Assembly: GCF_026898115.1 (NCBI RefSeq)
Contig: NZ_CP114036.1
Span: 186,001-250,000, forward strand
Direction of reading: 5' to 3'
DNA: 64,000 bases
DNA from: Streptomyces sp. S465
GTDB taxonomy: Bacteria; Actinomycetota; Actinomycetes; Streptomycetales; Streptomycetaceae
Part shown: one piece after another, positions 1 to 39,830 of the stretch
Layout of the letters: each line of letters begins with the position of its first letter
How positions within the stretch are numbered: the stretch's first letter is position 1
Translations under genes and position numbers: made by a program
The notes under the pieces: generated by a model
Told to the model about the DNA's origin: nothing
What the model saw: only the letters and a program-made list of their open reading frames with translations
The model's database searches: none

Positions 1-103
1 ACCGGGTTCGTCATCCTCGCTCCGACTGCCAACGCACGGTATGGGCCAAGCAAGCCGCCCCGCCACACAAGAGCCGGCTCCGGCCGGCCAAGAAAGGACA
101 CTC

Positions 104-856
104 ATGCGCCTGCACGACAAGGTAGCCCTGATCACCGGTGCCTCCAGCGGCATGGGGCGTGCCACCGCCGAAACGTTCAGTCGTGAGGGCGCGACCGTTG
201 TCATCGCCGACATCGCCGACGAGGACGGCGCCTTGGTCGTCGACGGGATCCGGACCGCCGGCGGGCAGGCCCGTTACCTGCACCTCGATGTCACGGACGA
301 GAGCTCATGGACCGCCGCGATCGAGGTGATCCTCGCGGAGTTCGGACGGCTCGACATCCTGGTCAACAACGCGGGGATCAGCGGCACCTTCGACCCCGAC
401 CTGACCAGCACCCGGTTCTTCGACCAGCTCATGCAGGTCAACGCGAAGGGTGTGTTCCTCGGCATCAAGCACGGCGCCGCAGCCATGGCCCGCTCCGGCG
501 GCGGCTCGATCGTCAACCTGTCCTCCATCTCGGCCTCCATCGGCCAGATCGGCGTGCACCTGGGCTACGGCGCGTCAAAGGCCGCCGTGAAGTCGATGAC
601 GACCACCGCGGCGGTGCACTACGCCGATGCCGGGATCCGCGTCAACGCGGTCGCACCGGGCATGCTGCCGGCGATGCGCACCTCCCGCGGCTCCGCGGAC
701 CCGGTGTGGCGGGCCAAGCAGATCGACGGGGTGCCGATGAAGCGGGCCGGGGAGGTACGGGAGGTCGCCGACGCCGTCCTCTTCCTCGCCAGCGAAGAGG
801 CCTCGTATATCACCGGGGTTGAGATTCTGGTCGACGGCGGACTGACCGCCGTCTGA
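104..856 (+). CDS. SDR family NAD(P)-dependent oxidoreductase
   Basis: A 250-residue classical short-chain dehydrogenase/reductase. The cofactor-binding glycine motif TGASSGMG is at residues 11-18, NNAG at 88-91, a catalytic serine near 141, and the active-site pair Tyr155 and Lys159 (YGASK). The C-terminus has the usual ITGxxxxVDGG pattern. The ATG at 104 is chosen because an AAAGGA ribosome site lies just upstream; an in-frame ATG at 41 has no such site. The length is normal for the family, so the protein should be an active soluble alcohol, ketone or steroid-type oxidoreductase, but its substrate cannot be read from the sequence. It stands alone upstream of the monooxygenase-rhodanese gene, 219 bases away. 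Confidence 0.9.
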   Translation: MRLHDKVALITGASSGMGRATAETFSREGATVVIADIADEDGALVVDGIRTAGGQARYLHLDVTDESSWTAAIEVILAEFGRLDILVNNAGISGTFDPDLTSTRFFDQLMQVNAKGVFLGIKHGAAAMARSGGGSIVNLSSISASIGQIGVHLGYGASKAAVKSMTTTAAVHYADAGIRVNAVAPGMLPAMRTSRGSADPVWRAKQIDGVPMKRAGEVREVADAVLFLASEEASYITGVEILVDGGLTAV

Positions 857-36732: not shown

Positions 36733-36957
36733 TCCTCGTACGTATGGCCCTGACCCGCCGTCGGCCGTGGCGGTACGGTCGTGAACAGACCCCCCGGAAG
36801 CGAGCGGTGACTCCCACCTGCGCGCGCATCACCACGGCCTGCGTGTGCGGCATCGACCCGCACCCCTACCACTCGAGGCCTGCATCCGACGGTCCAGTAC
36901 GCATGGGCTGTCGCCGAGACGGGCCGGCGTTGCACTCGGACACCCTTCGCCCGCCGT

Positions 36958-36987
36958 CCGTACGGCAAAAGTACGCTGTCCGTACGG
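36958..36987. promoter_or_regulatory. Paired CCGTACGG palindromes upstream of tap
   Basis: CCGTACGG occurs at 36958-36965 and 36980-36987, centres 22 bases apart (two helical turns), within longer matches GTCCGTACGG. They lie 35-64 bases before the tap start, where an autoregulatory protein could bind; Tap itself has an Xre-type DNA-binding domain. Confidence 0.55.
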
Positions 36988-37021
36988 TTGTTGCGATAGG
37001 GTGCCGACCCGGAGGTGTCCC

Positions 37022-39265
37022 ATGTCCGAGTTGTTCGACGCGGTCGACGCACTGGTCGCGTCCCGCTCGCCGCTGCCGCCGGCAGAGGAGCGCAAGCGGC
37101 TGCGCCAGGCGCACGGCCTGACGCTGGACGAAGTGGCCGCCGCCCTGAAGGTGCGCCGGGCGACGGTGTCCGGCTGGGAGTCCAGCAAGAAACCCACCGA
37201 GCCGCGCGGGCCGGAGCGTGAGGCGTACGCACGGCTGCTGAACAAGCTCGCGGAACTCTACCCCGCGCCGGCGACGCCGCGGGAGCCGACGGCCGCGCCG
37301 GCGCCGGCCGCGTCCCCCCACACGCCTGCCCCGGCGGAGCGGGCCGTGTCCACCGGCCCGGCCCCGGAGGCCGCGGCCATGACGGCAGCCCCTGGAAACG
37401 CCCGGCCCGCCCCCGCTCCGCCCGCCCCCGCTGCTGCCGCTGCGCCGCGTCCGGCGCGCACCGCAAGGACGTCGTCGACGTCGCGCCACCCGGACGTGAA
37501 GAAGGCGGCCCCGGCCGGCACCCCGGCGCCGGTCGCCGCGCGGTTCGAGAACGGACCGCTCGCGGTCGTCGACGTCGAGGACGGCCAGGTGCTGGCGTAC
37601 TGCCCCGGCGGCCTGGTTCTGGACGTACCCGCCAAGTCCCTCCCGGCCCTGGTGGACTGGACGCTGCGCGAGGCGAGGCTCGGGCAGCCGAAGCTGTCCG
37701 GGCCGGGCAAGGACGCCGACCCGCTGCTCGTGCTCACCGAGGCCGCGCTGGAGCGCTACGGGCTGCCGGTCACCCTCACGGAGGAGGAGCGGCTCGCCGG
37801 GCGGATCCCGGAGGGGCACAAGGTCATCAAGCAGCTGAGCCGCGCCGACTGGAAGCTCACCCAACGCGGGTTCGGGCCGTGGGCGCGGGTCTACCGCCCC
37901 GCGCAGCGCTCGGAACGGACCTGCGTGCAGCTGTGCATCCCGTCCTGGCACGCGCTCGACTCCCGGCACTGGGGCCAGGCCGGCCAGCTTCCGCCGCCGG
38001 AACTCGCCCGGCTCCTGGGGGTGTACGCGTCCCGGGTGATGACGCCGCGCGGCTCCACCGCCGTCACCGGCCTGGAACTGATGACCGCGCTCCACCCGGC
38101 GACCCGCGCCTCCGAACCGGACGCCGACGGCAAGCGGCACTCCGAGCACAACCCCGGCTCGCTGGGCAAGGACCCGGTGGACTGCGCTCCGTGCGAGGCA
38201 CCCGACGGGCATCCCCTGCTGGCGGACCTGCCGCGCTTCCACGTGCGCGGCCCGGCGGAGAAGCTGTTCGAGGAGGCGTACGACTGGGCACGGCCCATGA
38301 CCGACGCCGAATGCACCCTGCGGCACCTGGTGGGCATCGACGTGAACATGGCCTTCGCCGCCGGAGCGAACGGCCTGGTCGTGGGCCTTGGCGCGCCGAC
38401 GCACGTCAAGGCGCCGGTGTTCGACGCGAAACTGCCCGGATCGTGGCTGGTCGACCTGTCCCATGTCGACCTGTCCCGGGTGAAGATCGCCAAGGACACG
38501 TGGGCGGACCTGGACAGCAGTCTGCTGCCGAGCCCGTTCACGCCGAAGGGCGAGCGCCCCGACGGCCCTGCCTGGTACGCGACACCCACCGTCGCCTACG
38601 CCCAGGAGCTGGGGTACCAGGTGCGCCCGATCGAGGCGTGGGTGCGCCACGACAACGGCCGCTATCTGGACGCCTGGTACAACCGGTTGCGCGATGCCTA
38701 CCTCGCCACGATGGCCGACCTCGGCGTCGACGCGAACCTGGCACCGGCGGACTTCCTGACGGCCATGGACGGCTACCAGCAGCGCGACCCGGAACTGGCG
38801 ATCGTGGTTTCCGCGATCAAGGCGACGGTCAAGGGCGGCCTGGGCAAGCTGCGCGAGCGGCCCCGCGGCGAAGGCTGGCGGCCGGGCCGGCCGTGGCGGG
38901 CCCTCGCCCGTCCCACGTGGCGGCCGGACATCCGCGCAGCGGTCATCTCCCGCACCCGGATCAACCTGCACCGCAAGATCCTCAAGCATGCGGCGTTCAC
39001 CGGTCAGTACCCGGTCGCGATCCTCTCCGACTGCGTGGTGTACGCGACCGACGGCACCACACCGCTGGACTTCCTGCCCTACCGGGACGGCAAGCCACTG
39101 CCGGGCGGCTTCAAGCTCGGGGTCAACCCGGGCCTGGTGAAGTGGGAGGGCACCCAGACCGTCCTGTGGGGCGAAGAAGTCCGCGACCGGTTCGACGCCC
39201 CAGCGCTCAACCTGGCCCGGTACATCAAGGACGGCACCGTCACCGACGCCGACAACGGGGAGTAG
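37022..39265 (+). CDS. tap: Telomere-associated protein Tap
   Basis: A 747-residue Streptomyces Tap, which binds telomeric 3' overhangs and recruits the terminal protein for end patching. Residues 25-60 form an Xre-type helix-turn-helix (LRQAHGLTLDEVAAALKVRRATVSGWE); 82-170 is an Ala/Pro-rich linker. The rest contains, in order, VEDGQVLAYC (186), GIDVNMAF (Asp440), a helix-rich AWYNRLRDAY block (551), IKATVKGGLGK (Lys600) and VAILSDCVVY (Asp670). I read these as counterparts of exonuclease I, motif A, TPR-like, motif B and motif C of protein-primed family B polymerases. GGAGG precedes the ATG. tpg follows after 7 bases. The identity as Tap is firm; the polymerase reading is inference. Confidence 0.92.
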   Translation: MSELFDAVDALVASRSPLPPAEERKRLRQAHGLTLDEVAAALKVRRATVSGWESSKKPTEPRGPEREAYARLLNKLAELYPAPATPREPTAAPAPAASPHTPAPAERAVSTGPAPEAAAMTAAPGNARPAPAPPAPAAAAAPRPARTARTSSTSRHPDVKKAAPAGTPAPVAARFENGPLAVVDVEDGQVLAYCPGGLVLDVPAKSLPALVDWTLREARLGQPKLSGPGKDADPLLVLTEAALERYGLPVTLTEEERLAGRIPEGHKVIKQLSRADWKLTQRGFGPWARVYRPAQRSERTCVQLCIPSWHALDSRHWGQAGQLPPPELARLLGVYASRVMTPRGSTAVTGLELMTALHPATRASEPDADGKRHSEHNPGSLGKDPVDCAPCEAPDGHPLLADLPRFHVRGPAEKLFEEAYDWARPMTDAECTLRHLVGIDVNMAFAAGANGLVVGLGAPTHVKAPVFDAKLPGSWLVDLSHVDLSRVKIAKDTWADLDSSLLPSPFTPKGERPDGPAWYATPTVAYAQELGYQVRPIEAWVRHDNGRYLDAWYNRLRDAYLATMADLGVDANLAPADFLTAMDGYQQRDPELAIVVSAIKATVKGGLGKLRERPRGEGWRPGRPWRALARPTWRPDIRAAVISRTRINLHRKILKHAAFTGQYPVAILSDCVVYATDGTTPLDFLPYRDGKPLPGGFKLGVNPGLVKWEGTQTVLWGEEVRDRFDAPALNLARYIKDGTVTDADNGE

Positions 39266-39272
39266 GTAGCCG

Positions 39273-39830
39273 ATGACCATGTTCGGGGACGGCCTCGACG
39301 CCGCGGTGCACAAGGCGTTCACCCGCCCGGCGCCCAAGAGCGCGGGCGCGCGGATGCGGTACCTCGTCAGGCAGCTCAAGGGCACCATGCCGGTTGCCGA
39401 GCTGCTGGGGGTCTCCCAGCGCACCGTCGAGCGGTACGTGAAGGACCAGATCAAAAAGCCCCGCCCGCGGCTCGCCGCGCGCCTGGAGCGCGAGGTGAAG
39501 AACAGGTGGCAGCCGCAGATCCGGGCCAAGGCCCGGCAGAAGGCAGCCACGACCGGTGGCATCGTCATCGACACCCGCGCCCGCCTCGGCTACACCGCAC
39601 CGATCGGCTCCACGGACCAGGACCGCATCCGGCACCTGACCCTCGCCCTGCCACCCCGGTACGCCGCCCGCCTCTTCGAGGCCCAGGAGGCCGGCGCCGG
39701 CGACCAGCAGCTGCGGGAGATCGCCGCCGAAGCGCTCAAGGAGGTGTACTTCCAGGACAACGGCCGCCGCGCCGGCCAGCTGGAAGAGGTGCGCTTCACC
39801 GATATCGAGCACCTGGAATTCGAGCTGTAG
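39273..39830 (+). CDS. tpg: Telomere-capping terminal protein Tpg
   Basis: A 185-residue terminal protein, the size of Streptomyces Tpg (184-185). It is covalently attached to 5' DNA ends and primes end patching. The N-terminus FGDGLDAAVHKAFTRPAPKS is typical; LLGVSQRTVERYV at 44-56 is a helix-turn-helix. Thr114 (IGSTDQD) coincides with the threonine I recall as the nucleotide-linked residue in characterised Tpg proteins. It lies 7 bases after tap, and the pair is an operon. It is strong evidence for a linear replicon. Confidence 0.95.
   Translation: MTMFGDGLDAAVHKAFTRPAPKSAGARMRYLVRQLKGTMPVAELLGVSQRTVERYVKDQIKKPRPRLAARLEREVKNRWQPQIRAKARQKAATTGGIVIDTRARLGYTAPIGSTDQDRIRHLTLALPPRYAARLFEAQEAGAGDQQLREIAAEALKEVYFQDNGRRAGQLEEVRFTDIEHLEFEL

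Follow-up and report, generated by a model that had tools for sequence, protein, structure and literature searches.

What kind of enzyme begins DNA synthesis at the telomeres of Streptomyces? The question is raised by tap and its neighbour tpg, which lie in a 64,000-nucleotide window from Streptomyces sp. S465 (contig NZ_CP114036.1, positions 186,001 to 250,000 of the forward strand). The activity of such a pair is known already from S. lividans. According to a 2015 report, S. lividans Tap and Tpg alone carry out protein-primed synthesis to ∼13 nucleotides (nt), in an assay that controlled for Pol I contamination and did not need DinB (PMC4513846). A second paper places the first nucleotide at Thr114 of Tpg (PMC3572947). 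An earlier, sequence-only reading of this DNA proposed a phi29-like polymerase/terminal-protein pair but held that Tap had not been described as a polymerase, a view outdated by the 2015 work. The Discussion of that report regards Tap as a new polymerase class without a polymerase motif, and Tap and Tac as lacking homology to each other or to any other protein (PMC4513846); a class so defined offered no active site to test.

Here we assign Tap to a family. It is very probably a divergent, trimmed, phi29-type protein-primed family B DNA polymerase (PolB), as judged from its predicted fold, the conservation of its motifs and its homology with a Tac-like family, and Tpg is likely its protein primer. 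What appears new is the family, the ancestry that Tap shares with Tac-like proteins and the probable position of the active site. No earlier family B assignment of Tap or Tac was found among titles, beginnings of abstracts and text passages, with most subscription papers and preprints outside this scope; the word ‘Streptomyces’ is absent from the main text of a 2020 survey of B-family polymerases.

The polymerase-like core of Tap

Among solved structures, the predicted structure of the Tap core matches phi29 DNA polymerase best (PDB 2pyj, 2ex3, 1xhx), with model residues 3..575 superposing on phi29 5..535. The model has a PolB palm and fingers nearest to those of phi29 polymerase, and the predicted likeness takes in the N-terminal (exonuclease) domain and so extends over the greater part of the core. 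Foldseek and VIA each gave a table of 50 matches for Tap; all are DNA polymerases, and B-family to the extent that titles show it. Within this core, the following features were located.

37535..39262, + strand: polymerase-like core, Tap residues 172-747
37535..38311, + strand: N-terminal part of the core, residues ∼172-430 (boundary approximate), overlying the phi29 exonuclease domain in the superposition
38333..38356, + strand: motif A, G438-F445, with D440 in 88/88 cores and aromatic residue 445 at the position of phi29 Tyr254 (profile alignment)
38357..38665, + strand: TPR1-like region, residues ∼446-548, from motif A to the fingers (profile alignment; boundary approximate)
38819..38845, + strand: motif B, K600-G608, with Lys and Gly each in 88/88 cores
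39014..39043, + strand: motif C, residues 665-674, with D670 in 88/88 cores and position 668 never Asp
39119..39151, + strand: G700...G704xxK707xE709, paired with the phi29 LGYWAHE segment (conservation and profile alignment)

Conservation was scored on 88 cores, the window core among them, drawn from 349 full-length domains at an 80% identity cut. Relatives were sampled as 120 of 3731 matches plus 120 of the 251 matches from a protein search with the Tap-like part of a Rhodococcus protein, and matches spanning <85% of the model were excluded. D440, K600, G608, D670, G700, G704, W422 and R424 are invariant in all 88 cores, K707 is present in 87 and E709 in 78. The sequence-only reading had placed motifs A, B and C at D440, K600 and D670 and had named beforehand two outcomes that would refute it, a predicted structure lacking a polymerase palm and variation of these residues among Tap proteins. 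Neither was obtained. The residues were located where it put them, and its proposal of a phi29-like pair is supported by the predicted fold and by this invariance. The pattern is that of family B: an Asp in motif A followed five residues on by an aromatic (residue 445 is Tyr in 60 cores, Phe in 24 and His in four), a Lys in motif B followed eight on by Gly, and an Asp in motif C. The A-B and B-C intervals are 160 and 70 residues in Tap, as compared to 134 and 75 in phi29 by the same measure.

Profile comparison places these motifs in register with those of known polymerases. The 88 Tap cores were aligned by hhalign to 42 protein-primed PolBs. Of these polymerases, 31 were taken from viral contigs and the other 11 from named phages, among them phi29, Cp-1 and PR3, a relative of PRD1. 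Tap 438-713 aligned to phi29 244-487 (record numbering), with motif A, the TPR1 segment, the FIDKW segment, motif B, motif C and the LGxW..E segment all collinear. The alignment scored 33.8, or 29.9 over the query columns. By comparison, 200 block shuffles reached 27.2 at most and averaged 16.3, and scores fell to 14.8 and 14.9 when Tap and the PolBs, respectively, were reversed. In the TPR1-like region, Tap WYATPTVAYAQEL is paired with phi29 WLSNVDLELMKEH, a segment that we take to belong to TPR1. In the later Gly/Glu segment it is G704-L-V-K-W-E709 that pairs with LGYWAHE, rather than K698-L-G as the sequence-only reading had it.

The catalytic carboxylates of phi29 polymerase are Asp249 and Asp458 (PMC4974454), and these positions are the two carboxylates retained in Tap. 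D440 and D670 are likely the catalytic pair, going by alignment and conservation, and two positions are now named for mutation.

Tac-like proteins and more distant relatives

A second telomere protein family, represented by a protein of pSCO2 whose identity as Tac we infer, is probably Tac, the counterpart of Tap that works with Tpc at SCP1-type telomeres. The pSCO2 protein stands in for Tac here because the plasmid collection does not include SCP1. The Tac-like alignment comprised 63 of 64 matches (P0264 omitted). Tap and Tac-like profiles matched each other at E 4.3e-10 with a score of 88.4, against a maximum of 29.8 in 150 shuffles. The two share this homologous core, corresponding motifs and the same best PDB match, phi29 polymerase, and in both models the match stops short of the last 40-50 residues of that enzyme. 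The Tac-like protein is predicted to have the same phi29-type fold as Tap. It differs in its N-terminus, in an Arg in place of the motif B Lys (63/63) and in a longer B-C interval (92-106), and it was published as unrelated to Tap. As the two are predicted to have one fold, the Tap and Tac-like systems are likely of one origin, and two families reported as unrelated now form one homologous group.

No Tac-like match occurs in the S465 genome, which is uninformative by itself. Elsewhere, some Streptomyces genomes assembled into one or two contigs have Tac-like genes close to the ends of these contigs (G729:C1:64957-66636 and 9553085-9554764; G739:C1:5094-6881), so the system is probably not confined to plasmids. 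The source contigs of the 64 proteins (P0245-P0308) are often small. The longest contig is 12-20 kb for 26 of the 64 and longer for only one, and pSCO2 itself (19.3 kb) encodes a GH25 lysozyme. These contigs may be small linear plasmids or phage-like elements.

The group also extends to Rhodococcus and Pseudonocardia linear plasmids and to Mycobacterium and Modestobacter proteins. A tblastn search for Tap relatives returned 435 plasmid records, mostly from Streptomyces (384) and Rhodococcus (26). Distant relatives at 26-30% identity form the C-terminal part of ∼1,790-residue Rhodococcus proteins, some of which are annotated ‘telomere-binding protein’, and occur in a 996-residue Pseudonocardia protein. 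The B-C interval varies across the group, with a median of 59 in the Rhodococcus/Mycobacterium type (spacing groups were computed on 83 of the 88 cores). No relative was confirmed in viral contigs, where 25 pattern matches yielded none. The Tap family model NF047542 matched 140 of 394 genomes of the class, a count we did not use: the match was above cut-off in 23, many others matched through the helix-turn-helix (HTH) only, and 4 of 14 control genomes matched as well.

Two variant architectures were seen. In P0180 (1783 residues, Modestobacter) and in a protein of Rhodococcus pDK3 (L034:2568-7943), the Tap core lies C-terminal to a primase-like region; residues 2-358 of P0180 match PHROG 6088, a DNA primase, at 4.4e-14 and are followed by a stretch that resembles a Walker A motif by eye. 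Both look from their sequences like fusions of a primase/helicase with a Tap core. In P0139 and 68 other Mycobacterium-type proteins (1000-1120 residues), the Tap core occurs twice, with a decayed copy making up the N-terminal half (395 columns aligned by hhalign at E 4.3e-18), and in P0139, the aligned reference, this copy retains none of the three catalytic positions. Such an active/inactive tandem recalls Pol epsilon, in which the inactive half is C-terminal.

Weighing the assignment

Several observations weigh against placing Tap in family B. Pairwise Tap-PolB similarity is weak when taken alone (P 0.004, HH probability 8.5%), and the structural match is modest in TM-score (0.36) and high in root-mean-square deviation (6.9). 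The Tac-like profile alone is borderline against PolB: its scores of 28.1 as aligned and 30.2 over query columns lie on either side of the best of 150 shuffles (29.2). Tap had no match above the curated cut-offs of Pfam DNA_pol_B_2 and DNA_pol_B, where profile sensitivity may be limiting, and PF03175 and PF00136 matched nothing in the S465 genome; across the phylum PF03175 matched 5 of 296 genomes, three above cut-off. Neither Pfam nor PHROGs profiles recognised a polymerase family in the core. Searches of Tap against Pfam, PHROGs and PDB sequences returned HTH and regulator families and weak others, such as a match to a tail tape-measure family in the linker (E 0.13). An NCBIfam match of the Pro/Ala-rich linker to Pol III gamma/tau (E 4.5) was not used.

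Tap also lacks parts that phi29 polymerase has. The first motif C Asp, which is typical of family B without defining it, is gone: position 668 is Asp in none of the 88 cores, Glu in four and otherwise non-acidic. The sequence-only reading was right that the second Asp is kept and the first replaced. Its match of VEDGQVLAYC to ExoI fared worse, and the phi29 segment it quoted presumably does not contain the catalytic ExoI Asp/Glu. D184 is Asp in 45 of the 88 cores and His in 31, E186 is Glu in only six, and D187 is the sole column before residue 350 that is at least 85% acidic. The catalytic carboxylates that an exonuclease active site requires are thus not conserved, and an exonuclease function for Tap was rejected. 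Because the profile of the N-terminal domain by itself does not detect the phi29 exonuclease (score 13.7), the exonuclease-like assignment of this domain comes from structure alone. Finally, 43 residues follow the aligned Gly in Tap (G704) as opposed to 94 in phi29, and the superposition, which ends at phi29 535, shows no counterpart of phi29 536-575.

Like the first motif C Asp, the exonuclease active site is typical of family B enzymes but does not define them. Primer-independent PolBs (piPolBs) need neither a protein nor a nucleic acid as primer to start DNA. In active piPolBs the first motif C Asp is absent, a likeness to Tap drawn by description, and the exonuclease is inactivated in Pol alpha and zeta (PMC7544198).

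Could Tap nonetheless be a new polymerase class with an origin independent of Tac, as Yang 2015 read it? The failure of Pfam and PHROGs to recognise the core fits that view, as does the Discussion cited above, with its absence of Tap/Tac homology and of motifs. It is hard to reconcile with the Tap/Tac-like profile match, with phi29 polymerase as best match of both models, or with the invariant A, B and C residues, and we consider it very improbable. An equally slight chance attaches to a Tap that derives from PolB but is an inert scaffold for telomere DNA and Tpg, while DinB or a trace host polymerase catalyses. The lost exonuclease residues, C-terminal part and first motif C Asp would suit a scaffold, a decayed core copy does exist in Mycobacterium-type proteins, and DinB1 or DinB2 is required in vivo according to PMC4513846. 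However, D440, K600 and D670 are kept in 88/88 cores when the decayed copy of P0139 has lost all three, and the 2015 assay, described in the same source, was controlled for Pol I contamination and did not require DinB.

The least credible alternative is an archaeo-eukaryotic-type primase, or an active site like that of a reverse transcriptase (RT) split between Tap and Tpg. A 2017 paper reportedly calls Tap a primase in its title, which we know from reference lists; ‘primase’ may be functional usage there. The authors of PMC4513846 mention that Tpg has an RT thumb motif, and they draw a parallel to hepadnaviruses. Against this, neither a primase nor an RT appears among the 50 Foldseek and 50 VIA matches, which does not in itself rule out other folds, and the Pfam matches of Tpg are weak, all below cut-off and mostly HTH. 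The assignment of Tap to the phi29-type PolBs is retained.

A proposed mechanism and the gene pair in the window

If the pair works as in S. lividans and phi29, Tap would bind the telomere at its folded 3′ overhang. Thr114 of Tpg would enter the primer site, with metal ions held by Asp440 and Asp670; Lys600 would meet the incoming nucleotide and the aromatic residue 445 would pack against its sugar. Tap would then join the first nucleotide to Tpg and copy the first palindrome, its exonuclease domain persisting as a shell without catalytic carboxylates. As these carboxylates are lost, Tap is probably proofreading-dead. Synthesis would end at ∼13 nt, after which another polymerase would extend, in contrast to the kilobases made by phi29 polymerase.

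The C-terminal 40-50 residues of phi29 polymerase are presumably its thumb region, which helps hold product DNA and would have no Tap counterpart. We infer from the models that this missing thumb limits Tap to a short starter, which may explain in structural terms a product of no more than 13 nt. In phi29, TPR2 and the thumb form a clamp that gives processivity, and the priming domain of the terminal protein touches both (PMC4974454). The B-C interval, in which TPR2 lies, gives no explanation for the short product, since its 70 residues in Tap are close to the 75 of phi29 and it is shorter or longer in relatives; a shortened TPR2 was dropped as a candidate. Other causes have been offered in PMC4513846, namely tight Tap-Tpg binding and the occupation of palindromes II and III by Tap.

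More broadly, we lean towards a single cut-down protein-primed family B lineage, having lost proofreading and thumb, as the source of Tap, Tac and the Rhodococcus/Mycobacterium-type ‘telomere-binding proteins’, so that a domesticated phi29-type replicase maintains actinobacterial chromosome and linear-plasmid ends. If true, a processive genome copier was turned into an enzyme that lays down the first 13 nt at telomeres, and bacteria would have an equivalent of telomerase that stems from a virus-like family of polymerases.

The gene pair that encodes this putative machinery, including an HTH that phi29 polymerase does not have, is laid out as follows.

37022..39265, + strand: tap, 747 residues, with HTH, linker and polymerase-like core; ATG start and stop codon; NF047542 at 1104 bits
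37094..37198, + strand: HTH, Tap residues 25-59; PF01381 (HTH_3) at 1.7e-06
39273..39830, + strand: tpg, terminal protein, 185 residues; NF047541 at 296 bits
39612..39614, + strand: codon of Tpg Thr114, to which the first nucleotide is joined in S. lividans (PMC3572947)

The genes are seven bases apart and ∼223 kb from one end of the 9.64 Mb contig. Tap scores well above the 600 bits that NCBIfam requires for NF047542, and HTH_3 is its sole Pfam match above cut-off. The mechanical open reading frame of tap begins upstream of the ATG, with a GTG at 36845. The NCBIfam family names, the gene order and Tpg Thr114 are all common to S465 and S. lividans, and a neighbouring terminal protein gene is a further likeness to phi29. 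Of the 80 Tap loci L042-L121, 78 yielded Tpg-like rows, 82 in all, and in these aligned residue 114 is Thr in 75, Ser in six and Gly in one.

The archetypal telomere palindrome was not seen in the 240-base contig ends, and its palindrome I matched the S465 genome at 13 sites with two mismatches and nowhere with fewer, whereas the backward control matched at 24. It may be that the assembly does not reach the true ends, or that the telomere is of another type. The contig ends themselves (1-240 and 9638630-9638869) are inverted repeats, identical at 240/240 of the bases read. Antisense to tap-tpg runs a 902-codon open frame (36866-39574), which probably just reflects the G+C-rich codon usage.
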